Positions 4,248 through 20,452 of a stretch of DNA of 64,000 bases are shown piece by piece. Below the pieces are notes generated by a model that saw only the letters and a program-made list of their open reading frames with translations, was not told where the DNA came from and did no database searches. The stretch is taken from contig NZ_JAYDCJ010000003.1 of NCBI RefSeq assembly GCF_034555935.1, forward strand, positions 1,426,001 through 1,490,000, in the 5' to 3' direction. The stretch's first letter is position 1; the number at the start of each line of letters is the position of its first letter. Source of the DNA: Marinobacter qingdaonensis (GTDB taxonomy: Bacteria; Pseudomonadota; Gammaproteobacteria; Pseudomonadales; Oleiphilaceae). The position numbers were made by a program, and so were the translations under genes.

Positions 4248-7112
4248 TTAGCTGTGGAGTGAGGCGTGGAACCTGAAGGCTTGGCCAATCTGCTCCCGAA
4301 TCTGCTTGTCATCCCAAGGCTTGGTCAGGAATTTATAGATAGACCCTTCGTTAATGGCCTCAGTCACTGATTTAAGATCGGTGTATCCGGATAGGATGAT
4401 GCGCACGGTATTCGGGTAGATCGCCTTCACTCGACTGAAGAACTCGGTGCCGGACATTTCAGGCATTCTCTGGTCAGAGATGATGACCTGAACCTCATTG
4501 GCGGCAAGTAAGGAGAAGGCTTCCTGAACGCTGGTGGTCGACAGAATCTGATAACCATCCCGTCGGAACACCCGGACCAAGGCCCGGAGAATATTGCTTT
4601 CATCGTCGAGTAACAGAAGGGTTTTCCCCGACGCTTCTTCAGCATTCGGCGTCTTGGTATCTCTGAGGTGCTGCTGGTTTGCGACCATAAATTCTTTAAG
4701 CTGCGTAAACGGCATCGGTCTGGAGAACAAGAAACCCTGCAGCAGGTCGCAACCATGTCGGCGCAGAAAAGCAGCGTGGGCATCGGTTTCGACACCTTCG
4801 GCCACCACGTCCAGGCGAAGGTGGTGTGCCATGGAAATGACACCCTGGGTAATCGCGGCATCGCTGCGATCACGAATGACGTCTTTGATGAACGACCGAT
4901 CGATTTTGATCTTATCAGCCGGAAACAGCTTGAGGTAGCTCAGACTTGAGAATCCGGTCCCAAAATCATCGATGACAATGCGCACGCCCAGACCTTTGAG
5001 ATCGTTGAGTGTCGAGATTACTTGATCGGCGTCGTAGAGGACCGCAGATTCAACGATTTCCAGTTCGAGGTTTTCCGGCGCAAGGCCCGATTGCACCAAT
5101 GCGTCGCGAACTGTGTCTGCGAACCCCGCTTTTCTGAGCTGAGTCGGGGACACGTTTACGGAGACTGAGCATTCTTTGTAGCCCGAGGCGTGCAGCGCCA
5201 CAATATCGCGACAGGCTTGCTTCAACACTGCGGCGCCCAGTTCGATGATTTGTCCAGTTTCTTCGGCCAGCGGGACGAAATCGCCCGGGGGCATGATGCC
5301 TTTGGTGGGATGTTCCCAGCGGACGAGGGCCTCTATGCTTCTGGTTTGTCCTGTGCGGGCATCTATCAGGGGCTGGTAAAACACCTGGATCTGGCTGGTT
5401 TCGATTGCCTCCTGTAACTCATTGCGCAGTCGGATCCGATAGTGGGCCCTGGTGTCCAAAGCCGTGCTGAACCACTGATAATTATTGCGCCCAAGCTCTT
5501 TCGCATGGTGCATGGCCAGATTCGCCTGTTTGATCAGGTCTTGGGGAGTTTCAACGGTGTTGTCAGTCGTTATGATTCCGATGCTTACAGTGAGGTGAAT
5601 GATCTCGTCGATAATTCGGTAGGGCATAGACAGTTTCCGGGTTACCTCCTCCACAACGGAAACTACATCGTTAGCGTGAGCCAAATCTGGAAGTAGAACG
5701 GCAAACTCGTCACCGTTAATGCGTGCGACCGTATCCCGCTCCCGGATCTGTCCACAGAGGCGAGACGCAACTTCAATGAGTACTTGGTCGCCGATACGGT
5801 GTCCCAGTGACTCGTTGATCAGTTTGAATCCATCGATACCTATGTACAGTAACCCGAGGACCCTGCCATACCTGACAGCGACCTGGGCGCCTTGGACCAG
5901 TCGGTCTTCAAGCAGTGCCCGGTTCGGCAGATTGGTGAGAACATCATGACTGGCGTTATACGCCAATTGATTCTCGATAGCTTTGTGGTCGGAAATGTCG
6001 TTCTGGATTCCGATATAGTGGGTAACTCGGTTAGAGTCGTCGCGAACAGGGGACAAATAAAGGTTGTTCCAAAACGGTGTGCCATCCTTCTTGAGGTTTT
6101 TGATAACCACCGATGCCTCACTTTGAGAGGTCAGCGCGGCCCGGATCTCTCTAAGAGCCCCGCTGTTACTTGGGTCATCAATATCCCCTTGCAGAAATCG
6201 ACAGTTGCGGCCGATAACTTCGCTCTGCTCGTATCCCGTCATTTTCTCGAACGTTGAATTAACGTACACCAGTGGGAGATCCGGTTCCTGGGCGTCGCAG
6301 ATGGTAATGCCGTTAAAGCTTGATTCGATGCATCGGCGCAGCAAATTCAGACGGTTGGTGTCCTCGACCTGCTTGGTCACGTCCGTAATCATCATCAGAT
6401 CAAGCTGGGTTCCGCCAAGAACGATTTCTTCGGAGAGAACCTCCACGAACATCTCGCGCCCTGTTCTTGAACGGTGGTGTTCCAGAGAACGGCCTTCACG
6501 AAGCGTCAGGCTCTGCTGTGCTTCCAGGGCATAGTTATGCCCGACACGAAGGTCCACCAGTGACAGGGATCCCGTTTCCTGAGCTGGCACACCATACAGG
6601 GACAAGGCCGACTGGTTCATTGCCACGAGCCGGCCCGAATCCGGTGCTACCAGGCACATTGGCGCTGGATTGTGCTCGAACAGGATGCGGTAGTGCTTTT
6701 CACTGTTGGCCAATCGCTCATTGGCAACGGAGCGGTCGATGGCGTAGCGGATGCTCCGGACTAACGTGTGACCGTCCAGTTTGCCTTTGACCAGATAATC
6801 GGCTGCGCCCAGGGAAACGGCGCGGGCGTCCAGTTCGTTATCGCCCTGACCGGTCAACAGGATAAACGGTGTGGCAATTTTTTGATCCTGCGCTTGCTGG
6901 ATGAGATCCAGCCCCGAGTCTGCGCCAATCCGAAAATCCACCAGCACGACGTCAAAGGTCCGAGTCTCCAGGACTGACAGGGCGCCAGCCAGGGTTTCCT
7001 CCCAGGTGAGCTCTGTCCGGACATAGGCCGCGTCCTCGAGAATGTCCCGGGTAATGAGGTAATCGTCCTCATCGTCTTCAATCAGTAGGATGCGCAGTGT
7101 TGGTTCGGTCAT
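4248..7112 (-). CDS. REC-PAS-LOV-GGDEF-EAL-REC signalling protein
   Basis: A 954-residue cytoplasmic protein. Domains in order: N-terminal receiver (acceptor Asp in LVDFRIG), PAS (about 135-255), LOV-type PAS (about 262-380), GGDEF, EAL, and a C-terminal receiver (acceptor in ISDQRMP, then KPWDD). The LOV domain has the flavin-adduct motif GRNCRFLQG; its Cys304 codon is at 6201-6203, followed by KKDGTPFWNN and IGIQNDIS. The cyclase motif is NGDEF rather than GGDEF, so its activity is uncertain. The EAL domain keeps EAL, NVSP, DDFGTGFSSL, KIDRSF and EGVET, so c-di-GMP phosphodiesterase activity is likely. The ATG at 7112 is chosen because it lies just past the upstream stop; an overlapping start at 7157 is possible. 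It is the last gene of the nine-gene operon. Confidence 0.9.
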   Translation of the reverse strand: MTEPTLRILLIEDDEDDYLITRDILEDAAYVRTELTWEETLAGALSVLETRTFDVVLVDFRIGADSGLDLIQQAQDQKIATPFILLTGQGDNELDARAVSLGAADYLVKGKLDGHTLVRSIRYAIDRSVANERLANSEKHYRILFEHNPAPMCLVAPDSGRLVAMNQSALSLYGVPAQETGSLSLVDLRVGHNYALEAQQSLTLREGRSLEHHRSRTGREMFVEVLSEEIVLGGTQLDLMMITDVTKQVEDTNRLNLLRRCIESSFNGITICDAQEPDLPLVYVNSTFEKMTGYEQSEVIGRNCRFLQGDIDDPSNSGALREIRAALTSQSEASVVIKNLKKDGTPFWNNLYLSPVRDDSNRVTHYIGIQNDISDHKAIENQLAYNASHDVLTNLPNRALLEDRLVQGAQVAVRYGRVLGLLYIGIDGFKLINESLGHRIGDQVLIEVASRLCGQIRERDTVARINGDEFAVLLPDLAHANDVVSVVEEVTRKLSMPYRIIDEIIHLTVSIGIITTDNTVETPQDLIKQANLAMHHAKELGRNNYQWFSTALDTRAHYRIRLRNELQEAIETSQIQVFYQPLIDARTGQTRSIEALVRWEHPTKGIMPPGDFVPLAEETGQIIELGAAVLKQACRDIVALHASGYKECSVSVNVSPTQLRKAGFADTVRDALVQSGLAPENLELEIVESAVLYDADQVISTLNDLKGLGVRIVIDDFGTGFSSLSYLKLFPADKIKIDRSFIKDVIRDRSDAAITQGVISMAHHLRLDVVAEGVETDAHAAFLRRHGCDLLQGFLFSRPMPFTQLKEFMVANQQHLRDTKTPNAEEASGKTLLLLDDESNILRALVRVFRRDGYQILSTTSVQEAFSLLAANEVQVIISDQRMPEMSGTEFFSRVKAIYPNTVRIILSGYTDLKSVTEAINEGSIYKFLTKPWDDKQIREQIGQAFRFHASLHS

Positions 7113-7117
7113 GGTGC

Positions 7118-7573
7118 TCAGGATTCCGTGTCGCTCAACCGGCTCTGACTCATCCACAGTCGCTTGAGTGATGCGACGATGTCAGTCAGCTCGGTGTACT
7201 TCGTGGGTTTTACAATGTAGGAGTTGGCGCCATGGCGGCGGCAGAATGCAGCATCGTCCGCGTTGCTGGAGGTTGTCATGACCACCACTACTAAATGACG
7301 CAGCCTGGGATCAGATTTGATTTCCTGTAGGGCTTTTCTGCCATCTTTTAGAGGCATATTCAGGTCTAGCAGGATCAAATCGGGGGCCTTATCATCTGGA
7401 GTGCAGCTGGTTTCAGATACCCGGTCAAGCAATGCCATCAGCTCAACCCCATTGTGCGCAAAACTCAGGCTGCACTCAGGGAAGCTTTCTTCGAACGCCT
7501 CGCGGATCAGCATGCGATCATCGGGGTCGTCCTCGGCAACAAGAATGTGAGGTGTCCTACCTACCTTATGCAT
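7118..7573 (-). CDS. Single-domain response regulator (Rcp1-like)
   Basis: A 151-residue stand-alone receiver domain of the Rcp1-like class that typically pairs with PAS or phytochrome-type kinases. The acidic pocket is AEDDPDD (residues 13-19), the phospho-acceptor is Asp70 in LLDLNMP, and the conserved Lys is in VKPTK. There is no output domain, so it is a phosphotransfer intermediate or acts by protein contact. Its start overlaps the end of the membrane kinase gene by 8 bp, which makes that kinase the likely partner. Confidence 0.9.
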   Translation of the reverse strand: MHKVGRTPHILVAEDDPDDRMLIREAFEESFPECSLSFAHNGVELMALLDRVSETSCTPDDKAPDLILLDLNMPLKDGRKALQEIKSDPRLRHLVVVVMTTSSNADDAAFCRRHGANSYIVKPTKYTELTDIVASLKRLWMSQSRLSDTES

Positions 7574-10466
7574 CGACGAGTTGGCCTTCCGTGGAGTGTT
7601 GCCTGAAACGAACTCGGAAGCTGGTGCCTAGACCGGGTTCGCTGTTTACGGTGATGTCCGCGCCATGGCGGTCCAGTATTTTTTTAACGATCGCCATCCC
7701 GATGCCGGTACCGGAATAACTGGCCCTGCTGTGCAGTCGCTGGAACGGATGGAAGAGCTTGTCGGCATAGCGGATATCGAAACCGATACCATCGTCCTCA
7801 ACCACCAATGTCCAACCACTGGTGTCGACATCCTCAGCAAAAACCCTAACGTGTGCCGGCTTTTCAGGTTCGTGGAATTTAATCGCATTGCTCAGCAGGT
7901 TCTGAAATACCTGGCGGATTTGAGTTGCGTCACCGGTGATCTTGGGTAATGCGTCAACTTGGATGACGGCTTTTTCCCTCGAGATGGCCGTCTCCAGATC
8001 CTGCAGGACTTCCTCCAGAATCGAGCTGGTGTCGCACAGCACCATGGGCTGGCCCCGCGTCGCGACTCTCGAATAGAGCAGCAAATCCTCAATCAGGCGC
8101 TGCATGCGTGCCGCCGCAGATTGCATGCGTTGCAGATAGTCTTGCTCACGTGTTCCGAATTGATCGGATTTGGTCAGCAGACGGTCTGAAAAGGTTTGGA
8201 TTTTTCGCAGCGGTTCCTGAAGGTCGTGGGACGCCACGAATGCGAAGTCCTCAAGCTCGCGATTGCTGCGCTCCAACTCGGACATCGCTGCCGCGAGGCG
8301 CTGTTCGGCTTCTTTGCGGTCATTGATTCGGCGGTAATAAACTGTAAGCCCTTCTTCGGACGGATAGGCGCTTACCTCTAGCCAGTGGTTCAGGGGGGCG
8401 TAATAGGCTTCAAATGATACCGATTCCCCCGTTGTCACCGCAAAACGATAGTTTTTATCAAATGTGCTACCGATGGCGTCGGGAAAAGCTGTCCAGATTG
8501 ATTTTCCAAGGAGCTGATCTCTGGGGGCCTGCAACAGTTCCTCAGATTTGCTGTTGACATAAGTGAAGCGCCATTGGTGGTCTAAGGTGAAAACAGCGTC
8601 CGTAATGCTCTCGAAAATGGTGGCGAGGCGATCTGCGAGCAGTCGGACTTGCTTTGTGGCCTCGTGGCTTGCGGTCATGTCCCGGCCGACGCAAAACAGT
8701 GTTTGATCAAGCTCTGACCAAGCCGCTGTCCATGAAATTATGACTGACTGACCGTCTTTGCGTACAAAACGAGTGCTAAAGTCGGTGGACACAGAGTCGT
8801 CACCAGCAACCAATTGATAGAACCTTGTCTCCGTTGTTTCTATGTCCTCGGTCGCCATCAGCTCAGTATATTTTCGACCAATTACCTCAGCCGGAGAATA
8901 GCCAAGGACGCTATGACACGCGGGGTTTACAGCCGTAATTACTCCTTCTGCCGAGAGCGAAGCAAGAATATCCCGAGAGAACTGCATAGTTCGATCATTG
9001 GTGAATCGGAGTTTTTGCTCTTTTTCGAAGAGGTTGCTCAGTGTTTCATTGAGTTGTGCCAACCCTTCCGCACGCTCATCGGATTGCCTGAAGAAAAGGT
9101 AGCTGAGCAGGAGCAGGAAGCTTACTGCAAGCCCGGTAAATAAGCTGGTCGGTGGAAAATAGACGTCGCCCGGGGTCATTGGCTTTCGCGGAGCATAAAT
9201 TTCAATTAGCCAATCCCCGCCGTCCATTGTCTGTGAGGCAAGCGGCAATGCCATGTCCGAAGAGATATTGGGCGAAGTGTCGAAAACAACCGAATGCTCG
9301 AATGAGAGTCTGAAATCCAGAGAGTGTGTGTTACTCACCCATGCCTTATCGAACAGTTTTTTAAAGTCGAAGACGGCCAGTATGCTGGGCGTATGAGCAG
9401 AGTCATTGTCCAAAGGAATTGCCAACGCCAAGTGATAGTTCCCAAACGCGTCAAAATAGGGCGGGCTCATCCGTTGTGACCCAGTACTAACAGCGTTGTT
9501 CAGCCAGCGGAACATCACCGGGTTAGAGAAGAGCGGGTTGAGACCAGATTGAGAATCAGAATCTCTGGGTTTGGCAAAACGGGTTTGGAAATTGGGCTCA
9601 AGCAACGCAAGGTAGGTAATATCCGGATAGTCTCGGAGATAGGTTTGGACCTCCTGTTGCCAAAGATGCTCTAAATCATTGCCTTCCAACATCGCCCAAC
9701 GTCCTGCCAAGCGATTTATCAGAAGCGTGCGGTCTTCATAGGCGTGTTCGTATGATTGATGAACCTCATTAGCGAGGATTTCAGCCCGTTCGAGAAGGTT
9801 GCGACTTTGTTCAATACGAAGAGTGTGCCAACTGAGGGTGGCAACGCCGACGCCCAACAAACTCAGTGTTAGAAGGGATGGAAAATAATCCGTGACGTTT
9901 AATTTATATAAATGGGGAAGAAAGGGAAGCAGGATGCCAGTCAAGATGAGCAGAAGACTTGCCAGAATAGTTGCCTCAGGAGTACTGCCAAGTGTAAACA
10001 TGGCCAAGTCGTCGTACGCCCGGGAGAGTAGCGAGAGGAATCCCAGGCTTACAACAATCGCTGCTGAACAAATACTGGCGTATCGGCTATGAGTGGTATT
10101 CACCGCACGCAGAGTGCTGATAGCAATAAGCAGAATTGCCACCATGAATAAGGGGTTTGCCGGGTTAATGCTTTCCAGGTGATCGAGGTTTATGAGCGAC
10201 GTAAGGCAAAATAGACTGGCCACCAGTGCCGTTGTGCCAGCGAAAAGTTTGGATAGCGTCCTTTTTCTCTTGAGCAGCGAAATTATCGAGCCAGATAGCA
10301 ATAGACCAAGAAGGCATCCGCTCACCCGCATTGGAAGCCGCCCGAGAGGTGTCGCATCGTGTTGGATGTAATCGTAAAGTGCGGCTGCACTGACCAAGCC
10401 CAGCGCAACGGCGAGTGTGAGCGCGTAACAGTACCAAACTTCTGGGCGTTTCAATGCCTTAAACAT
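7566..10466 (-). CDS. Membrane sensor histidine kinase with two PAS domains
   Basis: A 966-residue hybrid-free histidine kinase. The first 205 residues contain about six to seven hydrophobic segments. An extracytoplasmic sensor region follows (about 215-435, CHASE-like in layout but not confidently matched), then one more membrane helix (about 438-460). Cytoplasmic PAS domains lie near 490-600 and 620-720. The HisKA motif FVASHDLQEPLRK has His747, and the HATPase has N-box NLLSNAIKF, DDGIGF and GTGIGMAIV. The kinase core is of the bacteriophytochrome-like class that uses small stand-alone receivers, matching the overlapping gene downstream. The start overlaps the upstream gene by 8 bp. Confidence 0.88.
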   Translation of the reverse strand: MFKALKRPEVWYCYALTLAVALGLVSAAALYDYIQHDATPLGRLPMRVSGCLLGLLLSGSIISLLKRKRTLSKLFAGTTALVASLFCLTSLINLDHLESINPANPLFMVAILLIAISTLRAVNTTHSRYASICSAAIVVSLGFLSLLSRAYDDLAMFTLGSTPEATILASLLLILTGILLPFLPHLYKLNVTDYFPSLLTLSLLGVGVATLSWHTLRIEQSRNLLERAEILANEVHQSYEHAYEDRTLLINRLAGRWAMLEGNDLEHLWQQEVQTYLRDYPDITYLALLEPNFQTRFAKPRDSDSQSGLNPLFSNPVMFRWLNNAVSTGSQRMSPPYFDAFGNYHLALAIPLDNDSAHTPSILAVFDFKKLFDKAWVSNTHSLDFRLSFEHSVVFDTSPNISSDMALPLASQTMDGGDWLIEIYAPRKPMTPGDVYFPPTSLFTGLAVSFLLLLSYLFFRQSDERAEGLAQLNETLSNLFEKEQKLRFTNDRTMQFSRDILASLSAEGVITAVNPACHSVLGYSPAEVIGRKYTELMATEDIETTETRFYQLVAGDDSVSTDFSTRFVRKDGQSVIISWTAAWSELDQTLFCVGRDMTASHEATKQVRLLADRLATIFESITDAVFTLDHQWRFTYVNSKSEELLQAPRDQLLGKSIWTAFPDAIGSTFDKNYRFAVTTGESVSFEAYYAPLNHWLEVSAYPSEEGLTVYYRRINDRKEAEQRLAAAMSELERSNRELEDFAFVASHDLQEPLRKIQTFSDRLLTKSDQFGTREQDYLQRMQSAAARMQRLIEDLLLYSRVATRGQPMVLCDTSSILEEVLQDLETAISREKAVIQVDALPKITGDATQIRQVFQNLLSNAIKFHEPEKPAHVRVFAEDVDTSGWTLVVEDDGIGFDIRYADKLFHPFQRLHSRASYSGTGIGMAIVKKILDRHGADITVNSEPGLGTSFRVRFRQHSTEGQLVDA

Positions 10467-12705
10467 CCAGCACCTGTGGTCCTAACAGTCTGAGTATTTC
10501 CTCGGCCGTGGTGAGGCCATCCCGCAGCTTTTCCAGGGCATCATCCAGAAGCGTGTTCATACCGTGTTCTTTGGCCAACGATTCGATCTGGATCGCGCTC
10601 GCGCCCCCGGTAATTGCCGCCCGCAGTTTTTCGTTCATGGTGAGGACTTCATGAATGGCAACCCGACCGCTGTAGCCGTTGTGGCATTTTTCGCAGCCCC
10701 TGCCTTTGAAAAACGTGAACTCGCAGTCTTTGAACTCGCCCCCCAATTGCCTCAATACGTCCGTGGGCCGCTCGCTCTCTATGCGGCAGAACCTGCAGAT
10801 TCGTCGAACCAGACGTTGGGCGATGATCGCCTCCAGCGCGGAAGCCAGAACAAACGGTTTTAGTCCCAGATCTAGCAGCCTTGCCACGGTGGCCGCTGCA
10901 GAGCTGGTGTGCAGCGTGGAGTAAACCAGGTGACCGGTCATGGCGGCGTGAAAGGCGACATCGGCGGTTTCTTCGTCGCGGATTTCACCCAGCAAAATGA
11001 CGTCAGGGTCCTGACGGAGAATTGCTCTGAGTACACTGGCGAAATCCAGGCCGATGCGGTCTTTCACGGGGACCTGTCCGGCCATGTCAACATGAAACTC
11101 GACAGGGTCTTCAATGGTGACGTAGTTTCGCTCCGGCGAGGCGTTGTGCTGGAGCAGGGCGTACAGAGTTGTGGTTTTGCCACTGCCGGTGGGGCCGGTA
11201 GCGAGAATGATTCCTTGCGGTTTGGCGACGACGTGTTTGAGCCGGCTCAGGTTATGGTCGGACAAACCCATGTCTTCCAGGGACTGCGCGGCAGACTGAC
11301 GCTCCAGAACCCGCATGACGACTTTCTCTCCGTTTATGGTCGGCAGGGTCGAAATGCGAAGGTCCACGATACGCATGGGCGTTTTTACTGTGATCCGGCC
11401 ATCCTGAGGCCGACGTCGTTCAGTGATATCCAGTTCCGCCATGACCTTGATGCGAGACACCACTGACATGAGCAGGCTGGTCGGGATTTGGATTTTGTCC
11501 TGTAACACCCCGTCAATGCGATACCGGACCACCAGGGATTTTGTTCTCGGGTGAATATGGATATCGCTGGCTCCAAGGCGCAGCGCTTCCAGAACGATGG
11601 CATTCACCAGACGAATAGCGGGAGGCTCCTCCGAGCTACCCAGCAACTGTTCCAGAGACTCTTGGTCGGTGTCCTCGTCGAGAATGATCTCGATACCCTC
11701 GAATGGATCGTCGTTGCCAACCTTGGTGGCAAAGTCATCGAGGTTGCTGGTCTCGCCAAAGGTCTCCGCGAGTTTGGCCTGCATTTGGGCGGTTTCACAC
11801 AGCACCGGATGAATGGTGTAACCGGTAATGAAGCCCAATTCGTCGATCAAATTGATGTCCATGGGGTCGACCATGGCCAATCGCAACCGCTGTCCACTTA
11901 CCCGCAGAGGCAATACCAGTTGGCGAGTACAAACGCTTTGTGGCACAAGTGATAGCAACGATGGATCGGGCTGAAGCTCGCGTAGATCGATTTCTTCAAA
12001 CATCATCTCATCGCGAAGCAGCGCAAAGACTTTCTTAAAATCCACCCACTCGTGTTTCAGCAGCTGTCTTACCACCGGAGTTTTCTGACTTTGCATTTCG
12101 CGATGCAGTTGCTGGATCTGTTGTGAGTTCAACCAGCCTTTTTTGTGCAGCAAGATCGCCAACTGGCTTCGGTTGGTTGCTGTTAATTTGCTGATTGTTT
12201 CGAGATCTTTGGTTTGCTTCTGCGTTTGTGCTTCCAGTGCCTTGGTGCGCTGGACCAGCTCGTGCTGCTCTAAAGCCAAGGCAATGGTCAGGCGCAGGTC
12301 GTCATCGTTCCACGGTTTGAGGATGAACCGGTAAACGGCCCCATCTTTGATCGACCCCATCACCGCGTCGGTGTTGGCGTGCCCGGTGAGCATGATGCGC
12401 ATGGTTTGCGGCCACAGTTTGCGCACTTCCTGCAGAAGTTCGCTCCCGGTCATTCCGGGCATTTTGAAGTCGGTCATGATCAGCTCAACCGGCTTCTGCG
12501 CCAGAATCTGCAGAGCCTCCTCACCACTGGATGCAAACAGAAGCTCATAATTTTCTTGCTGGAACACCCGCCTCAGGGAGGCAAGGATGTGAGGCTCATC
12601 ATCGACCAGCAGCATGCGATAGGGGGACTTTTTTTCGACGGTTTTCGGCGGCTCCGGCGAATCGGCGGTTTTGCCGTGGAACAAAGATGCGTAGCGTTTC
12701 GTCAT
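10459..12705 (-). CDS. Receiver domain fused to GspE/PilB-type secretion ATPase
   Basis: A 748-residue fusion. Residues 30-150 are a receiver with acceptor Asp79 (MTDFKMP) and KPWNDD near 130. A short helical linker leads to a GspE/PilB N-terminal-like domain (about 175-320), then the AAA-type ATPase (about 360-740). Walker A is GPTGSGKTTT at 504-513, the Asp box contains DIHIHP, Walker B is VILLGEIRDEE near 569-579, the His box is STLHT, and a tetracysteine zinc site uses Cys637, Cys640, Cys671 and Cys674. All catalytic motifs are intact. Usual GspE/PilB proteins have no receiver. No pilin, secretin or inner-membrane platform gene is next to it. It begins one base after the upstream stop codon. 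Confidence 0.92.
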   Translation of the reverse strand: MTKRYASLFHGKTADSPEPPKTVEKKSPYRMLLVDDEPHILASLRRVFQQENYELLFASSGEEALQILAQKPVELIMTDFKMPGMTGSELLQEVRKLWPQTMRIMLTGHANTDAVMGSIKDGAVYRFILKPWNDDDLRLTIALALEQHELVQRTKALEAQTQKQTKDLETISKLTATNRSQLAILLHKKGWLNSQQIQQLHREMQSQKTPVVRQLLKHEWVDFKKVFALLRDEMMFEEIDLRELQPDPSLLSLVPQSVCTRQLVLPLRVSGQRLRLAMVDPMDINLIDELGFITGYTIHPVLCETAQMQAKLAETFGETSNLDDFATKVGNDDPFEGIEIILDEDTDQESLEQLLGSSEEPPAIRLVNAIVLEALRLGASDIHIHPRTKSLVVRYRIDGVLQDKIQIPTSLLMSVVSRIKVMAELDITERRRPQDGRITVKTPMRIVDLRISTLPTINGEKVVMRVLERQSAAQSLEDMGLSDHNLSRLKHVVAKPQGIILATGPTGSGKTTTLYALLQHNASPERNYVTIEDPVEFHVDMAGQVPVKDRIGLDFASVLRAILRQDPDVILLGEIRDEETADVAFHAAMTGHLVYSTLHTSSAAATVARLLDLGLKPFVLASALEAIIAQRLVRRICRFCRIESERPTDVLRQLGGEFKDCEFTFFKGRGCEKCHNGYSGRVAIHEVLTMNEKLRAAITGGASAIQIESLAKEHGMNTLLDDALEKLRDGLTTAEEILRLLGPQVLDV

Positions 12706-13860
12706 TCAGGACCCCGTGGCGCCAGAAACGGTCATCGTAAACCGGCTTCCGATGTGTTCTTTGCTTTCAACTATGATCTCTCCGCCATGCGCCTGAGCGG
12801 CGTCTCTGGCTACGGTCAGTCCCAGCCCCGTCCCGGATCCGACCGGACGCGTTGTAAAGAAGGCATCGAAGATCTGATCCAGGTTGGCATCCGGAATGCC
12901 GCAACCGTTGTCTTGAACGATTACATGGATGCCCAAACTGTCCTCCTTGGTTTTCACCAGAATTTGGCCTTCGCGGAGGCCCGATTCTGTGGTTTTGATG
13001 GCGTGGGCTGCGTTGTCCAACAGGTTGAAAAAAGCCTGGGACAGCTTCGCCGGGTAGCCGGGAATATCCTGGACGTCGTCCAGTTGTGCCTGGATGTTGA
13101 GCTCGGAGCCGTGCGCGGTTTGGGCCATGTGGATGGCGCTGCGCAGCAGCGCATTGATATTGCACCGGGAATGATTGTCCTGATCAATATTGGAGAACGT
13201 TTTCAGGTCAGAAACGATGCTGGCAATTCGGCTGGTGCCGTTGAGTGATTCGGCGATCAAGTCTTTGAAGTCGCGGAGAAGTTCGCTGTTATGTCGGGTT
13301 TCGGGCAGGGCACCCTCAAGTTCGGAGACATACTCTCCGGCAGCCCGAAGGTTACTACTGATAAATCCGATCGGGTTGTTGATTTCATGGGCAATCCCGG
13401 CGGCCAGGTGCCCGACCGACCGGGATCGTGCCGTTTCATAGAGTTTCTGACGGGTTTTATCGATGATGGCAACCTGCTGCTCCACCTGTTCCTGGAGCTG
13501 GTCCGACAGTTGCCGGTATTTTGCCTCGGAGGCGGTGAGCGCCTCGTTTTGTCGTTGCAGTTCGGCGTAGCTCGCATGGGTGACATCATGGTGCATATTG
13601 GCGGCCAGTCGATACTTGGCGACAAAAAAAAGAAAAAAAGAAACCAGCTCTGCGGCGTGCGTGCGTATGTCCTGGGAGTCACCTCCCGACAACCAGGCGA
13701 TGGCCTCCAGATTGAACTCGATTGGCGAGGTGTGTGGCCTGGGGTGGTCGAGAATCTTGAAGGGGTGGCCGCAAAGAGCTCCCAGCGTTTTCTCTAAACG
13801 GTCGAGTTGTTCCTTTGAAAGTAGGTCGCTGAGATTTGGATCGTCGTCGAATTTCAGCAT
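12706..13860 (-). CDS. Soluble histidine kinase
   Basis: A 384-residue cytoplasmic kinase with no membrane segment. Residues 1-100 form an unrecognised input domain, 100-145 are a coiled coil, and the HisKA motif GHLAAGIAHEINNP places the phospho-His at 158. The HATPase has NLLDNAAHAI, DNGCGIP and the TRPVGSGTGLGL lid. This kinase class often serves receivers encoded beside it. Its start overlaps the GTPase gene by 7 bp. The N-terminal domain could be the docking or sensing site for the GTPase, but that is a guess from gene order. Confidence 0.88.
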   Translation of the reverse strand: MLKFDDDPNLSDLLSKEQLDRLEKTLGALCGHPFKILDHPRPHTSPIEFNLEAIAWLSGGDSQDIRTHAAELVSFFLFFVAKYRLAANMHHDVTHASYAELQRQNEALTASEAKYRQLSDQLQEQVEQQVAIIDKTRQKLYETARSRSVGHLAAGIAHEINNPIGFISSNLRAAGEYVSELEGALPETRHNSELLRDFKDLIAESLNGTSRIASIVSDLKTFSNIDQDNHSRCNINALLRSAIHMAQTAHGSELNIQAQLDDVQDIPGYPAKLSQAFFNLLDNAAHAIKTTESGLREGQILVKTKEDSLGIHVIVQDNGCGIPDANLDQIFDAFFTTRPVGSGTGLGLTVARDAAQAHGGEIIVESKEHIGSRFTMTVSGATGS

Positions 13861-14522
13861 AGGGAACCGACACCTACCCGACTGAGTCCATTGATGAATT
13901 CCGCCCGACCAATGCCGTGTTGGCGCTCGAGGTCGAACTGTTGGTCTATCACGGAATAGAGCCGATCCAAAAGACAGCTAAAGGTTTCGACGACGCCCTT
14001 ACCATTCAACGCCGATGCCATAATTGGAGGTGCCCAGGGCGTTTCTGCCCAAATGTCATGCAGTTCGGTTTCATCGACTACGCCGGGAAGGTCACGCTTG
14101 TTGAACTGAATGACCAAGGGCAGGCTTTCGATGTCGATCCCGACTTTTTCCAGATTCTCCTCCAGGTTCCCAAACGCAACGGCATTGTTGTCGACTTGGG
14201 ACGGCTGCGAGTCGGCTACAAAAACCACGCCATCGGCCCGGGATAGAACCGCTTTTCTGGTGCTGTCATGCTGAACCTGTCCAGGTACAGTGAACAGTTT
14301 CAGTCTTAGGTTGAGTCCGGAGGAGCATCGCAAGCCAATGGGGAGCATGTCGAAGAACAACGTTCGGTCGTCGCGGGTTTCGAGCACCATGAGCTCGCCT
14401 TTTCGCTCCGGGTTGAGCAAGGTGTGCAGCTGCATCAGATTCGTGGTTTTTCCACTGAGAGCGGGACCGTAAAAAACCAGCTTGAGCGTCAACTTGTTCT
14501 CGTCAGGACTGAACTCGGACAT
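13854..14522 (-). CDS. MglA-like small GTPase
   Basis: A 222-residue Ras-like bacterial GTPase. The P-loop is GPALSGKTTN at residues 19-28, the switch II region reads TVPGQ at 78-82 (the MglA-type replacement of the usual DxxG), and the base-specificity motif NKRD is at 141-144. In Myxococcus, MglA sets cell polarity and directs the type IV pilus motors. Here the GTPase gene lies two genes upstream of a PilB/GspE-type ATPase. No roadblock (MglB-like) activating partner is encoded in the operon. It is about 25 residues longer than typical MglA, with the extra length at the C-terminus. Confidence 0.88.
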   Translation of the reverse strand: MSEFSPDENKLTLKLVFYGPALSGKTTNLMQLHTLLNPERKGELMVLETRDDRTLFFDMLPIGLRCSSGLNLRLKLFTVPGQVQHDSTRKAVLSRADGVVFVADSQPSQVDNNAVAFGNLEENLEKVGIDIESLPLVIQFNKRDLPGVVDETELHDIWAETPWAPPIMASALNGKGVVETFSCLLDRLYSVIDQQFDLERQHGIGRAEFINGLSRVGVGSLC

Positions 14523-14536
14523 GGGAATCCTTTTCG

Positions 14537-15064
14537 CTACCGGTCGTTTCCAATGAGTACAGAGCCATCGGCGTCCCGCTGGACCCTCGTAATGCCCGGG
14601 TGTTCATGCTCCAGTCGCAGTAACTCCTCCTCCCTGGCTTTGATTTGAGCCTTTTGGCTGTTGTTCTCTTCGCGTAACCGACGGTTTTCCCGGGTCAGTT
14701 GGTATAGGTCAATGGCCGATTGGATAGCCGCAATGACTTCATAATCGTCCCAGGGTTTCGACAGATAACGGTACACTTCAGCCTGGTTGATGGCTTTGAT
14801 CATTGAGTTCCGGTCACCGTAAGCGCTGAGTACCAGTCGGATAGCGTCGGGCTGGCGCTGCTTGGCAAATTGCAGGTAGGTGACTCCATCGGCAGTTGGC
14901 ATTTGATAGTCAGAGATTATGACCGCGAACTCATGCTCCAAAAGACCGCCCAGGGCACTCTCGACGTTGTCGAATGCATGGATTTCCCAGTCCTGCGCCC
15001 GAAGTAGCCGACGCAATGCGTTGAGGATGTTGGGTTCGTCGTCGACTAACTGAATCTTGATCAT
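14537..15064 (-). CDS. Response regulator with C-terminal coiled coil
   Basis: A 175-residue receiver with acceptor Asp52 in ISDYQMP and the KPWDDY motif near residue 107. It continues into a charged helical segment (about 118-155) predicted to form a coiled coil, then a short tail. There is no recognised output domain. The KPW-x-D motif is shared with three other receivers in the operon, which implies a common set of kinases. Its start overlaps the upstream gene by 4 bp, and the GTPase gene begins 14 bp downstream of its stop. Confidence 0.87.
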   Translation of the reverse strand: MIKIQLVDDEPNILNALRRLLRAQDWEIHAFDNVESALGGLLEHEFAVIISDYQMPTADGVTYLQFAKQRQPDAIRLVLSAYGDRNSMIKAINQAEVYRYLSKPWDDYEVIAAIQSAIDLYQLTRENRRLREENNSQKAQIKAREEELLRLEHEHPGITRVQRDADGSVLIGNDR

Positions 15065-16431
15065 TGCTGTGGCTCCGTTTCCTTTTCGTTTCGGTACACG
15101 TACAAGGTGTACCGATGGCCATTGGGCTCGACCTTCTCGAAGGTTGCCAGCTTGTCTATCAGTGAGGCCGTCAGTTGCTTTCCTTCGTTGAGCAACAGCA
15201 TACCTGAGGCAGAGTAGAGGTTTCGGGCCAGCGTCATTCCGGGTTCAAGGCGGAGGACGTCGAGCCTTTCGATTGCGGGGTCATGCTTTTCCACGTCGGG
15301 GGCCAGTGTCCGTAACATTTCCAGAAATTTGTCCGCCAATTCCGGGTCGTACAAGCGGCCCTGATAGCGTGCGATGAGTTTCATGGCATCGTCCCGGCAC
15401 ACCTTCCGGTCAAGCACCAGCCCGAGCTGCATCTCTTCGAAATCCACGGCCAGCTTAAGAATGCGTGCGCCCAACGGAATTTGGTCTGCCTCGAGCCCGT
15501 CAGGATGACCATAGCCGTACCATTTTTCCTGGTGGTGGCGGATTATCCGTGCGGTTTCCCTAAGGGGTTCCAACGGCAACAGCAGTTGTTCCCCTGTGAC
15601 CGGGTATTTTTGATACTCGAGCCGTTGGTTTTTCTTGAGTAGTTCTGATGGCGTCTCGAAGAGCTCATCGGGCCAGGTAAGTTTTCCCAGGTTGTACAGT
15701 GCCGCCGCCATGGCCAGATTCTGAGCTAGATCTCTGTCCAGGCTCAGATAGTCTGAAAACGCCTTAATCAGTGCGATCACTCTGGTATTCGGCAGCCGGC
15801 TTGCAGGCAGGCGCCTGTTGATCAGTGAAGCAAACACTTCGGTTGCGGTGACGTAGCTTGATCGTAACTCAGTACAGGCCAGGTCCAGCATGTCAGCCGT
15901 TTGTTTCAATTCTGCTGTTCGTTTTTGAACGCGATCTTCCAGAGAGGCATTAAGCTCCTTAAGCTCCTGGTTTTGCTTGCGGGTGAGCTTTTCCAGAGCC
16001 CGTCGGCGCCGCTCTGAATACTGAAATGCCAGTGCTTGGCGAATGATCAAACGAAGCTCGTCGTCCTCCCAGGGCTTTTTTATATACCGGTAGAGCTGAC
16101 CCTCATTGATGGCTTTGATGGTGGACGTAATATCGGTGTAGCCGGTGAGAAGTATGCGAATGCACCACGGGTAATGCCTCTTGATATGGGCGAGTAACGT
16201 GGGACCGTCCATGCCCGGCATGCGCGCATCGGATATAACCAGATCGATGCGCTGCTTGGCCATCAGGTCAAGTGCCTCTTCGCCTGAGCATGCGGTCTCA
16301 ACCTGGTAAGGTTCGTTTCGGAGGCTGCGCCGCAGACTTCGGAGGATATTCTCCTCGTCGTCTACCAATAACAGTCGAACCTTGGGGAGAACCCGCTCTA
16401 CCAGGCTTTCCTCTGGAATCGGAGTGTTCAT
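15061..16431 (-). CDS. Receiver plus degenerate HD-GYP domain protein
   Basis: A 456-residue RpfG-like protein. The receiver has Asp68 (ISDARMP) and KPWEDD near residue 120; a coiled coil (about 138-180) leads to an HD-GYP-like region (about 195-365) and a C-terminal extension. The metal-binding HD pair is replaced by Tyr246-Asn247 (ALYNLGK, normally HDIGK), and the GYP loop reads GYGHPDGL after RHHQEKW. The c-di-GMP phosphodiesterase activity of canonical HD-GYP proteins is therefore unlikely; it may bind c-di-GMP or act as a scaffold. It overlaps both neighbouring genes by 4 bp. Confidence 0.85.
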   Translation of the reverse strand: MNTPIPEESLVERVLPKVRLLLVDDEENILRSLRRSLRNEPYQVETACSGEEALDLMAKQRIDLVISDARMPGMDGPTLLAHIKRHYPWCIRILLTGYTDITSTIKAINEGQLYRYIKKPWEDDELRLIIRQALAFQYSERRRRALEKLTRKQNQELKELNASLEDRVQKRTAELKQTADMLDLACTELRSSYVTATEVFASLINRRLPASRLPNTRVIALIKAFSDYLSLDRDLAQNLAMAAALYNLGKLTWPDELFETPSELLKKNQRLEYQKYPVTGEQLLLPLEPLRETARIIRHHQEKWYGYGHPDGLEADQIPLGARILKLAVDFEEMQLGLVLDRKVCRDDAMKLIARYQGRLYDPELADKFLEMLRTLAPDVEKHDPAIERLDVLRLEPGMTLARNLYSASGMLLLNEGKQLTASLIDKLATFEKVEPNGHRYTLYVYRNEKETEPQQ

Positions 16432-17288
16432 GCGTCGACTACGTCGTCACTCGATTTAGGGTGCAGTAAAGGCAATTTGATCCGGAAACAGGTGCCCTGG
16501 CCTTGAGTGCTTTCTACCAGCAGTTCTCCCTCGTGCTTTTCGATGATGTTAAAGGACAAGGAGAGCCCCAACCCCGTACCTTTGCCAACTGGCTTGGTGG
16601 TAAAGAACGGTTCGAAAACTCGGTTGAGGTGCTCTGGGGCAATCCCCTTGCCGTTGTCCTCAATTTCGATGACCGCGAAATTGCCTTGGCAGCGGGTTCG
16701 AATGGTGATCGTTCCAAAGCCTTCGATCGCGTGCGCTGCGTTCACCAGCAAATTCATCACCACCTGATTGACCTGGGAAATGATGCATTCCACGTCTGGC
16801 AGGTCACCAAAGTCCCGGATGACCTCTGCCTTGTATTTCAGTTCGTTATTAACCAGGTTGAGCGTGGTCTCGATACCACGGTGGATATCCGCCGGCTTGA
16901 ACTCTTCTTCCTCGATGTGGGAAAAGTCCCGCATCGCGGCAATGATGGTTTTCACCCGTTCAATGCCTTCCTTGGACTCCACGAGCAACGCCTTCAAGTC
17001 ATCACGAAGGAATTCATAATCAATATTGTGTTTGATGGTTTTCAGGTCTTCGAGTGACTCAGCGCGCCCCACGGCCTCTGTTAGTCGAAAGAGATCGCTA
17101 AGGTAGCTGTCGAGACTTTGGAGGTTTGAATAGACATACCCCACCGGATTATTGATTTCATGCGCGACGCCAGCGGCAAGCTGACCAATGGCCGCAAGCT
17201 TTTCGGACTGCAACAATTGCCGGTTGGCCTGCTCCAATTGCGCCTGGAGTGCATTCTGTTCCGAATCAAACACTGGGGAATTTGACAT
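16428..17288 (-). CDS. Soluble histidine kinase (first gene of the signalling operon)
   Basis: A 286-residue cytoplasmic kinase: a short coiled coil (about 8-30), the HisKA motif AAGVAHEINNP with His43, then a HATPase with NLLVNAAHAI, DNGKGIAP and TKPVGKGTGLGL. There is no sensor domain, so it presumably receives its input from a partner protein. The ATG at 17288 is preferred because GGGAGG lies about 11 bases upstream; a GTG at 17300 is directly behind that site and is less likely. It shows clear similarity to the second soluble kinase at 12706, suggesting a duplication. Confidence 0.87.
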   Translation of the reverse strand: MSNSPVFDSEQNALQAQLEQANRQLLQSEKLAAIGQLAAGVAHEINNPVGYVYSNLQSLDSYLSDLFRLTEAVGRAESLEDLKTIKHNIDYEFLRDDLKALLVESKEGIERVKTIIAAMRDFSHIEEEEFKPADIHRGIETTLNLVNNELKYKAEVIRDFGDLPDVECIISQVNQVVMNLLVNAAHAIEGFGTITIRTRCQGNFAVIEIEDNGKGIAPEHLNRVFEPFFTTKPVGKGTGLGLSLSFNIIEKHEGELLVESTQGQGTCFRIKLPLLHPKSSDDVVDA

Positions 17289-17561
17289 AGTGTGGGCCAC
17301 CTCCCTGGCGTGGTGCTGAAGTATCTAAGCTTGTCGCGGTGTGGCGGTGTCACAAAAGCAGAAGAATTCAGCGAGGATTATAGATCCATGGTAGTCATCT
17401 TTATGTAATATTTAGTATACATATTAATGGTATTTGTAGCGTGATTATGGAGAAATAAGGCGGCATTTGAAATGATGGGTTCGATGCCATCGAGTTAAAA
17501 AAGGCTCTGTGGGGCACGGGGTATTGTGCGCCACGTCACATAACCGTTCTGTCAACCTAGT
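17289..17561. promoter_or_regulatory. AT-rich leader of the nine-gene signalling operon
   Basis: This gap between spoVR (3' end) and the operon contains the most AT-rich stretch of the region, about 17380-17460, with several TATA/ATAT-like elements suitable as minus-strand promoters. I do not recognise a specific operator. No convincing rho-independent terminator for the operon's upstream side is visible. Confidence 0.45.
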
Positions 17562-19127
17562 TCAGTCATCATCCTCTTGCAAGGAGAGGCGGGGGCAGTG
17601 GTATTCCTCCACCACCGTGCCTTCGTCGACGCTCTCCAGGTGCACGTCAAAACCCCATAGCCGGTGCACGTGGCGCAGCACTTCCTCGGTTTCGTCGCCC
17701 AGCGGCACCCGGTCCACGGGCACGTGGCGCAGGGTCAGTGAGCGGTCGCCGCGCACGTCGACATTCCAGACCTGGATGTTCGGCTCGCGATAACTGAGGT
17801 TGTACTGGCGTGCCAGTTTTTCCCGCAGGATGCGGTAGCCGGGGTCGTCGTGGATGGCGGTGACCCGGTACACGTCCTCCTGGTCGTCGTTCTGGATCGA
17901 GAACAGCTTCAGGTCGCGCATGACCTTGGGTGACAGGAACTGCTGGATGAAGCTTTCGTCCTTGAAGTTCTTCATGGCGAAATGCAGGGTTTCCAGCCAG
18001 TCGGTGCCAGCGATGTCCGGGAACCACTCCCGGTCCTCGTCGGTGGGGGCTTCGCAGATACGTCGCAGGTCGGTAAAGATCGAGAAGCCCAGGGTGTAGG
18101 GGTTGAGTCCGGAGTACCAGGGGCTGTTGAACGGCGGCTGGTACACCACGGCGGTGTGGCTCTGCAGGAACTCGAGCATGAAGCCGTCGTTGACCAGGCC
18201 TTTCTCGTACATGTCGTGCAGCAGGGTGTAGTGCCAGAAGGTGGCCCAGCCCTCGTTCATGACCTGGGTCTGGCGCTGGGGGTAGAAGTACTGACCCAGC
18301 TTGCGCACGATGCGCACGATCTCCCGCTGCCAGGTCTCCAGCAGTGGCGCATTCTTTTCAATGAAGTACAGGATGTTTTCCTGGGGCTCTTCCGGAAAAC
18401 GCTTGTGCGCCTTTTCCTCGTCGCCATCGCCGTCCAGGATCGGGATGGTGCGCCAGAGGTCGTTGATGCGGCGCTGCTGGTATTCCTCCCGCTCCTGCTG
18501 TCGCCGCTGTTCCTCCACCGCGGAAATGGGCGCCGGCCGTTTGTACCGGTCCACGCCGTAGTTCATCAGGGCGTGACAGGAGTCGAGGATCTGCTCCACC
18601 GCGTCCACGCCGTAGCGCTCCTCGCACTCGGCCACGTAATTGCGGGCAAACACCAGGTAGTCGATGATCGCGCTGGCGTCGGTCCAGGTCCGGAACAGGT
18701 AATTGCCCTTGAAGAAGGAATTGTGGCCGTAGCAGGCGTGGGCGATGACCAGCGCCTGCATCGGCAGGGTGTTCTCCTCCATCAGGTAGGCGATGCAGGG
18801 GTTGGAGTTGATGACGATCTCGTAGGCCAGGCCCATCTGCCCGCGCTGGTAGCCTTTGGAGGTGCTCAGGAATTGCTTACCGAAGGACCAGTGGTGGTAA
18901 CCCACCGGCATGCCCACCGAGCTGTAGGCGTCCATCATCTGCTCGGCGCTGATCACTTCGATCTGGTTCGGGTAGGTGTCCAGGCGAAACCCGGCCGCGC
19001 ACTTGGCGATCTCCTCGTCGTACTTGCAGATCAGGTCGAAGGTCCATTCCGAACTGGTGGATATGGGCTCGCGCTTGCCCGCGCGCCCGTTGTCCGGCAC
19101 GTCGGGCCGATCCATCATGTCGGTCAT
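17562..19127 (-). CDS. spoVR: SpoVR family protein
   Basis: A 521-residue member of the SpoVR/YcgB family, named after a Bacillus sporulation gene but widespread in non-sporulating proteobacteria. Family features include the [10 protein letters not shown] segment in the middle and [16 protein letters not shown] near residue 130, where conserved His and Glu residues suggest metal binding. Its biochemical activity is unknown. It is the third gene of prkA-yeaH-spoVR, and its start overlaps the yeaH stop by 4 bp. The operon is usually induced in stationary phase or nutrient stress. Confidence 0.92.
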
Positions 19128-20419
19128 GCGGCTTTCCTCTCAAACAGCTGGCGGAATACCGGATAGATTTCCCCGGGGTCGGCGATCTGCTGCATCGCAA
19201 AACTCTGCGGGTAGCGCTCCATGATCTTTTCGTACTCGTACCACAGCATCTGGTGATCCTGCGGCGTGATCTCGATGTAGGCGTAGTACTGCACTAGCGG
19301 CAGCAGGCTGTCGGCCAGGATCTTGCTGCACACCGGGGAGTCGTCGTTCCAGTTGTCGCCATCGGACGCCTGGGCGGCGTAGATGTTCCACTCCGACGGC
19401 GGGTAGCGGGATTCGACGATTTTCTTCATGAGTTTCAGGGCACTGGAGACAATGGTGCCGCCGGTCTCGCGGGAGTAGAAGAATTCTTCCTCGTCCACTT
19501 CCTTGGCGCTGGTGTGGTGGCGGATGAAGACCACGTCGATCTTCTTGTAGTTCTTCTTCAGGAACAGGTAGAGCAGGATGAAGAAGCGCTTGGCGATGTC
19601 CTTGTGCATCTGGGTCATCGACCCGGACACGTCCATCAGGCAGAACATCACGGCGCTGGTGGCCGGTTGCGGATGCTTCAGGTGCTGCCGGTACCTGAGG
19701 TCGATCTCATCAATGAAGGGAATGCGCCGGACGTTGGCCTTGAGGCGGGCGATTTCCTCTTCCAGGACCTGGATCTGGTCCTCGTGACTGAACGCCGGGT
19801 CCAGATCCTCCGGCGCCGATCGCAGGGCCGCCAGTTGTTCCTCCAGGTCCCGGATCTTCTTCTTGCGGGCGCCGCCCAGGCCCAGCCGGCGGGCGTGGGC
19901 GCCGCGCAGGGAGCGGACCACGTCGAGCTTGGCCGGCACGCCCTGGGTGGTAAACCCGGAGCGCACGTACTTGAAGGAGTCGGTGTCCTTGAGTTTCTTG
20001 CGGGCGAGGTTGGGCAGCTCCAGATCATCAAACAGGAAATCCAGGAACTCTTCCTGGGTGATCTGGAAGGCGAATTCGTCCATGCCTTCGCCGTCCGGAC
20101 TGGCCCGGCCGGAGCCCTGGCCGCCACCACCGCCGCCCTCGGGCTTGGGGATGGTGTCTCCGGCCACAAACTCCTGGTTGCCCGGGTGCACCACCTCCCG
20201 TCGGCCGCCCTGGCCGTGGTGGAAGATGGGCTCCTCGATGTCCCGGGCCGGGATGCTGACGTTTTCGCCGCGTTCGATGTCGGTAATCGAGCGCCGCTGC
20301 ACCGCATCCGCCACCGCTTTCTTGATGTGGTGGCGGTAACGGCGCAGGAACCGTTCCCGGTTCACCGCGCTCTTGTTTTTCCCGTTCAGTCGCCGGTCGA
20401 CTACGTGGGTCATTCCCAT
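19124..20419 (-). CDS. yeaH: YeaH/DUF444 family protein
   Basis: A 431-residue DUF444 protein. The C-terminal half has a von Willebrand-A-like fold with the MIDAS-type motif DVSGSMT. A highly charged, Gly-rich region (about 85-110) follows the N-terminal part. It is always found with PrkA and often SpoVR; in E. coli, YeaG and YeaH act together in survival under sustained nitrogen starvation. It lies 33 bp downstream of prkA and overlaps spoVR. Function beyond partnership with PrkA is not known. Confidence 0.92.
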
Positions 20420-20452
20420 AGCGTTACTCCAGTTCAGCGCATGGTCACTGAC

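Follow-up and report, generated by a model that had tools for sequence, protein, structure and literature searches.

The DNA analysed here is a 64,000-nucleotide stretch of the genome of Marinobacter qingdaonensis (hereafter the window; contig NZ_JAYDCJ010000003.1), part of a 3.99 Mb assembly. Nine consecutive minus-strand open reading frames (ORFs) at 4248-17300, termed P9 to P1 in the order of transcription, form a compact operon that joins histidine kinases and phosphoryl-receiver domains to an MglA-type small GTPase and to a PilB/GspE-like ATPase with a receiver of its own. The successive junctions from P9 to P1 measure -4, -4, +14, -7, 0, -8, -8 and -40 bp, the last becoming +5 bp if P1 starts at ATG 7112. 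The features of the locus are as follows.

16428 to 17300, minus strand: P9, cytosolic histidine kinase with HisKA and HATPase domains (GTG start 17300 or ATG start 17288).
15061 to 16431, minus strand: P8, receiver (KPWED) with a degenerate HD-GYP domain, NosR family, 456 aa (Pfam, NCBIfam).
14537 to 15064, minus strand: P7, stand-alone receiver (KPWDD) with a C-terminal tail.
13854 to 14522, minus strand: P6, MglA-type small GTPase, Group 1-like, with motifs GPALSGKT, DRT (arginine finger), TVPGQ and NKRD.
12706 to 13860, minus strand: P5, cytosolic histidine kinase with a short N-terminal domain.
10459 to 12705, minus strand: P4, receiver (KPWND), degenerate MshEN domain and T2SSE-family (PilB/GspE-like) ATPase.
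7566 to 10466, minus strand: P3, histidine kinase with a hydrophobic N-terminus and PAS domains.
7118 to 7573, minus strand: P2, stand-alone receiver without KPW.
4248 to 7157, minus strand: P1, receiver-PAS-LOV-GGDEF-EAL-receiver (KPWDD) protein (GTG start 7157 or ATG start 7112).
4248 to 17300, no strand: low-GC block, 53.7% GC against 62.5% in the rest of the window.

A first-pass annotation of this DNA had described a compact nine-gene cluster on the minus strand, and the ORFs bear this out, with gaps that fit its figures when P1 starts at ATG 7112. Pfam agrees with its three histidine kinases (P3, P5 and P9), its six receivers in five proteins (twice in P1, once each in P2, P4, P7 and P8), its T2SSE-family ATPase with an N-terminal receiver, to which an MshEN domain is added, and its PAS-GGDEF-EAL protein. 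All the domains in that inventory are thus present; what it overlooked is the HD-GYP-like output domain of P8. P3 presumably resembles phytochrome-type kinases, and P2 is what we take to be an Rcp-like receiver. The N-terminal domain of P5, in a predicted structure with a pLDDT of about 86, shows a weak likeness to a truncated GAF domain, which it may be; KH domains top the non-significant Foldseek list.

The receivers set the operon apart within its own genome. The KPWxD motif is found in 4/80 receivers of the genome (81 matches are listed, of which 80 were fetched, the weakest being left out), and all four belong to the six receivers of the operon, an outcome with a chance of 15/C(80,4), about 1e-5, under random placement. 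In a quick tree rooted at its midpoint, the four form one clade with a local support of 0.965. The motif shared by four receivers, as proposed at first pass, is therefore confirmed and is private to the operon. Since the KPW receivers form a private clade, it is plausible from their sequences that they are served by common kinases.

The gene order is conserved. Of ten Marinobacter relatives, nine have matches to the full set of genes in the same order, and one lacks P8; conservation among the ten is weak over the N-terminal half of P3. The named sequences most like the GTPase come from Marinobacter, and named records of M. salarius and M. nauticus contain it. The GTPase occurs in 10/36 other Marinobacter genomes and in none of 21 genomes from other families of the order. 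A three-gene core, consisting of the MglA GTPase, a histidine kinase and the receiver-PilB-type ATPase, has a range wider than Marinobacter. A scan of species-representative genomes confirmed at least 537 stretches as related to the GTPase, and the counts of loci that follow refer to the best 80 by similarity to the GTPase of locus L043. These loci are mostly from beta- and gammaproteobacteria, with titles that include Methylomonas, Hahella, Sulfuricella, Pseudothauera, Pseudomonas indica, Noviherbaspirillum, Desulfogranum and one metagenome-assembled genome (MAG), "Polarisedimenticolaceae". All 80 have a P5- or P9-like kinase on the same strand within 0.9 kb downstream of MglA. P4 lies within 3 kb of MglA in 78, and both misses end at contig ends, one of them still showing the P4 receiver; in 68 of the 78 the match to P4 extends at least as far as residue 740, the other 10 stopping at contig ends. 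At one locus (L063) an extra receiver gene stands between the kinase and P4. Farther out, a P7-like receiver lies directly upstream in at least 48/80 loci, and in at least 49/80 a P8-like protein is encoded no more than 1.2 kb upstream, both lower bounds on account of contig ends. Other neighbours that recur are HDOD proteins (22 loci), PAS-GGDEF-EAL-receiver proteins (24) and a receiver protein of 273 aa whose PAS match is under the cut-off (17). In a sample of 369 genomes of the class, a query specific for P4 matches seven, the same seven in which the GTPase is matched over its full length with more than 260 bits, indicating that the two are inherited jointly.

Base composition sets off the same unit. 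The edges of the low-GC block are the edges of the operon, within the resolution of 1-kb windows, and single genes of the operon range from 51.4 to 55.5% GC, those measured in the flanks from 59.0 to 67.0%. Because the block coincides with the operon, the nine genes probably entered this genome as a single piece. In the ten Marinobacter relatives the GC content of the module differs by no more than 2 points from the fetched flanks, and the genes that flank it here (SpoVR, DUF444, LrgB, a TetR gene and ORF 1430) were found in 0/16 Marinobacter loci checked, within fetched stretches of which some have short flanks. The first-pass annotation had read the genes as one system and had named beforehand a lack of linkage in related genomes as its refutation. 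The same linkage is seen in genomes both closely and distantly related, P4 and the GTPase are found in the same 7/369 class genomes, and the operon is one compositional block, so that this reading has held up. It is consequently highly improbable that these are unrelated signalling genes sharing a transcript by chance, an explanation largely refuted by the conserved linkage; the core triad alone is fixed and the outer genes differ between lineages, as chance might have it, but the order kept in nine of ten relatives, the joint presence, the private receiver clade and the single compositional block all run counter to it.

Four further genomes of the class have weaker GTPase matches. Two of them (G089 and G233) hold distant MglA relatives without P4. 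In G392 (L047, 3716-6242), P8 and P7 are matched over most of their length and MglA and the receiver-ATPase only as fragments, and the core seems, from these remnants, to have decayed together. In G093 (L137, 2367-14600), NosK/NosR-like genes, a diverged MglA and a receiver resembling the C-terminal one of P1 have a different PilB-like ATPase and a PilT-like ATPase as neighbours, which looks as though the signalling genes had been joined to another set of motors. Upstream of the operon in the window, on the same strand at 17562-22375, stand SpoVR, DUF444 and PrkA genes in a row, presumably an ordinary trio. Elsewhere in this genome, the canonical PilB locus (C3:1921835-1925992) has 49.3% GC compared with 62.3-65.1% in six other loci, and this low GC suggests that the main pilus genes were exchanged too.

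P4 is a T2SSE-family ATPase (PF00437, 431 bits against a cut-off of 24.9) with the Walker A lysine present. It stays under the cut-offs of the PilB model TIGR02538 (566.6 bits; 675.65), the GspE model TIGR02533 (538.8; 630.25) and the TfpB model NF053534 (423.5; 850), and the genome encodes separate PilB, PilT-family, GspE and TfpB proteins that exceed theirs. In a tree, 24 P4 rows form one clade (97/100) separate from the PilB, GspE, TfpB and MshE-like ATPases of the same genome; deeper joins are not resolved and long branches are flagged. P4 might drive or gate type II secretion, or a type IV filament other than the type IVa pilus, as the near-equality of its GspE and PilB scores and the presence of GspE in the genome would allow. 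This is distinctly unlikely, however, as the PilB model spans P4 from residue 182, including the N-domain, whereas the GspE model begins at 255, and as PilB heads the PDB matches of P4; of these two families, PilB alone was tallied across the module genomes, which makes that comparison uneven.

Ten aligned P4 proteins share, without exception, the DD, Asp, Thr and Lys of the receiver, the Walker A lysine and four cysteines. In P4 itself the receiver aspartate is D79. The active-site residues of P4 are, by sequence, intact. This conservation of the ATPase motifs and cysteines in 10/10 proteins is what a working motor would have, and bears on the proposal that P4 is a signalling output and not a motor, a PilB-like ATPase that reports or relays a state, for example to exopolysaccharide or cyclic diguanylate (c-di-GMP) enzymes, and that MglA and the receivers would switch. 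Such a role is unlikely, though the strong c-di-GMP flavour of the cluster, the lack of any dedicated platform gene seen nearby and the function of Myxococcus PilB itself in exopolysaccharide regulation, as given in the available part of PMC5544727, are in its favour. The MshEN domain of P4 is degenerate. MshEN receptors of c-di-GMP carry two (R/K/L)LGxx... motifs, according to the consensus in the parts available of PMC5013675 and PMC11731258, and a reading by eye of the 10-row alignment of the P4 family finds QLA in place of RLG in the first motif of nine rows, RIA in that of the tenth, and a second motif without LG, so that P4 lacks this pair. The accessible text of PMC5013675 adds that imperfect motifs may still permit binding and mentions MshEN domains fused to receivers; the fusion as such may therefore have been listed earlier in the literature.

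The identity of P6 as MglA is indicated by PDB sequence matches to chains of that name (E 6e-43 to 7e-41); Pfam finds Arf only, barely above its cut-off. The motifs by which PMC4316618, in the portion seen, defines Group 1 MglA proteins are all present, namely the P-loop, an arginine beside the G2 threonine, TVPGQ and NKxD. They are conserved in the P6 family, with the P-loop lysine in 97/98 rows, the arginine finger in 97/97, the G3 glutamine in 98/98 and the G4 aspartate in 97/97. No MglB roadblock accompanies this GTPase, as a search for Robl_LC7 gives 0 matches in the genome and detects matches in 3/14 controls. Robl_LC7 is likewise absent from 53/66 other genomes with the module and occurs at least once in 13/66, regardless of distance to it, in a set that seems to hold at least one genome twice. 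MglB is the usual but not the universal partner, being found for 390/449 MglA-family members in the same part of PMC4316618. An MglA without MglB raises the question of which protein is its GTPase-activating protein.

P8 matches Pfam HD_5 and is a member of the NosR family (NF053512, 530.5 bits against a cut-off of 400). The HD dyad of active HD-GYP phosphodiesterases is missing from it, Y246-N247 standing instead; outside Marinobacter, the best HD-GYP match of each locus keeps H in 45/60 rows and D in 41/60. P9 is NosK-like by its position and its HEINN motif, and scores 323.6 bits, under the cut-off of 450, with the NCBIfam model T2SS_HK. In the NosP-NosK-NosR system, as far as the available part of PMC12570481 describes it, the HD-GYP domain of Burkholderia NosR is likewise degenerate and NosK has no predicted membrane regions and a HEINN motif. 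P9 and P8 are thus like NosK and NosR, but the operon differs in having no FIST sensor and in the HD dyad that is often kept outside Marinobacter. The family score of P8 and these likenesses would suit a nitric-oxide branch in which P9-P8 are NosK-NosR and the operon serves mainly in biofilm control through a FIST (NosP) sensor. This is quite improbable, given that the operon holds no FIST gene and that FIST is found in 29/37 Marinobacter genomes, including 9/11 with the module, and is absent from 5/6 other module genomes. P8 orthologues (at least 546 bits) occur in 10/37 Marinobacter genomes, all of which have the GTPase; an eleventh GTPase-positive genome is without one, and two GTPase-negative genomes hold weaker relatives of 314 and 228 bits.

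P1 contains the motif NCRFLQ with its reactive cysteine, which we take to be the reactive-cysteine motif of LOV domains. The cysteine is kept in 17/18 Marinobacter rows (some genomes are counted twice) and in 6/20 rows elsewhere. By this residue P1 would be capable of responding to blue light, and as the cysteine is absent from most rows outside Marinobacter, blue light would be at most a local input; it looks like an addition made in Marinobacter. The earlier suggestion that light is the defining input is accordingly not borne out, nor is that of redox sensing, to which nothing found points. The GGDEF motif of P1 (residues 481-485; 4248-7157) reads NGDEF, with S in the first position in 18/19 Marinobacter rows (some genomes twice), and the cyclase activity may be altered.

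With a probability of about 0.48, the operon makes up by itself the control system of an accessory pilus-type motor, gated and placed by kinases and MglA and acting on a type IVa pilus whose genes lie elsewhere in the genome. P5 and P9, the cytosolic kinases, would phosphorylate the KPW receivers, including the one fused to P4, and phosphorylation would release or block the motor. The orphan MglA, in its GTP form, would place P4 or its partners at the cell pole, and P4 would act on the inner-membrane platform of the pilus, in the way that TfpB works alongside PilB in Acinetobacter baylyi. A second layer in Marinobacter (P3, P2 and P1) would contribute a PAS kinase in the membrane and a c-di-GMP enzyme capable of responding to blue light, through which local c-di-GMP and the state of the motor could shift together. 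That the module aims or gates a pilus motor is suggested by the family of the ATPase, by the precedent of MglA, which as MglA-GTP recruits SgmX and so activates polar pili (PMC7668184, in the part available), and by the co-presence of PilB. PilB is found above its cut-off in 45/50 module genomes, hand-picked from 71 non-Marinobacter loci, the five misses all being titled MAG, compared with 252/369 genomes in the class sample and 0/14 controls.

Several observations weigh against this proposal. The association with PilB is confounded by kinship and starts from a base rate in the class that is already 68%. The PilB score of P4 (566.6, cut-off 675.65) is close to its GspE score (538.8). No structural gene for a pilus or secretion system was found in nine flanking ORFs (three without any Pfam match), as the first-pass annotation had stated, nor in the 10 neighbour-family representatives scanned out of 45 clusters listed, most of them without annotation. 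PilB exceeds its cut-off in 33/36 other Marinobacter genomes and MglA is present in only 10/36; most PilB-bearing Marinobacter thus lack MglA, and the module is therefore dispensable for having pilus genes. Phosphotransfer, GTPase activity and localisation are putative here.

Known systems share parts of this arrangement. The MglA of Myxococcus xanthus, which works with SgmX, Frz and RomR, is likewise of the Group 1 type with an arginine finger, and receivers and a kinase system act on polarity (PMC7668184 and PMC4316618, in the parts seen); here, in contrast, MglB is absent and a receiver is fused to a motor-type ATPase. Moreover, mglA of M. xanthus does not lie near the genes of its response-regulator partners, by the same portion of PMC4316618, whereas here kinase and ATPase share the operon of the GTPase. 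The actinobacterial conservons (Cvn, AGPS) also place a histidine kinase and an MglA-family GTPase in one operon (available part of PMC13343842), but with a roadblock protein and CvnC, a Group 2 GTPase and no response regulator (PMC4316618, as above), unlike the receivers and ATPase seen here; a CvnB-type roadblock, as conservons have, is found neither among the domains of the operon nor, as Robl_LC7, in the genome. TfpB, a second pilus extension motor of A. baylyi according to the accessible part of PMC8213720, is similarly an extra PilB-like ATPase beside the canonical PilB, but P4 scores far below its cut-off (423.5 against 850) and carries a receiver, and the genome has a separate TfpB. 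In the Pil-Chp system of Pseudomonas and the PATAN-receiver proteins of cyanobacteria, receivers recruit or bind PilB to set the position of pili (PMC10519157, in part); there the receiver is a separate protein, while here one lies within the ATPase, and the CheA-type kinase of Pil-Chp contrasts with the likely kinases here, which would be simple cytosolic ones. No paper describing the module was found among titles and abstract openings, a search in which subscription journals are thinly covered, and the terms receiver and MglA do not occur in the searchable part of a 2024 review of PilB cofactors (PMC11656802). The gene set is widely conserved and apparently undescribed.

It is possible, as a tentative proposal, that these genes represent a new class of steerable filament motor, in which phosphorylation of its own receiver would switch a PilB-type ATPase and an MglA that lacks MglB would position it. 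Such a cassette would have spread as one piece through beta-, gamma- and some deltaproteobacteria and been wired to clade-specific senses, in Marinobacter to blue light and c-di-GMP. What is understood of how cells control where and when pilus motors act comes mostly from systems of many genes, such as Frz-MglA and Pil-Chp, and the presence of kinases and a small GTPase beside a pilus-type motor with its own phosphorylation switch suggests a direct way to steer or gate a pilus. As the GTPase, the kinase and the motor-type ATPase with its built-in phospho-switch come in one operon, the steps that lead from the kinase to the motor could be reconstituted with purified components.

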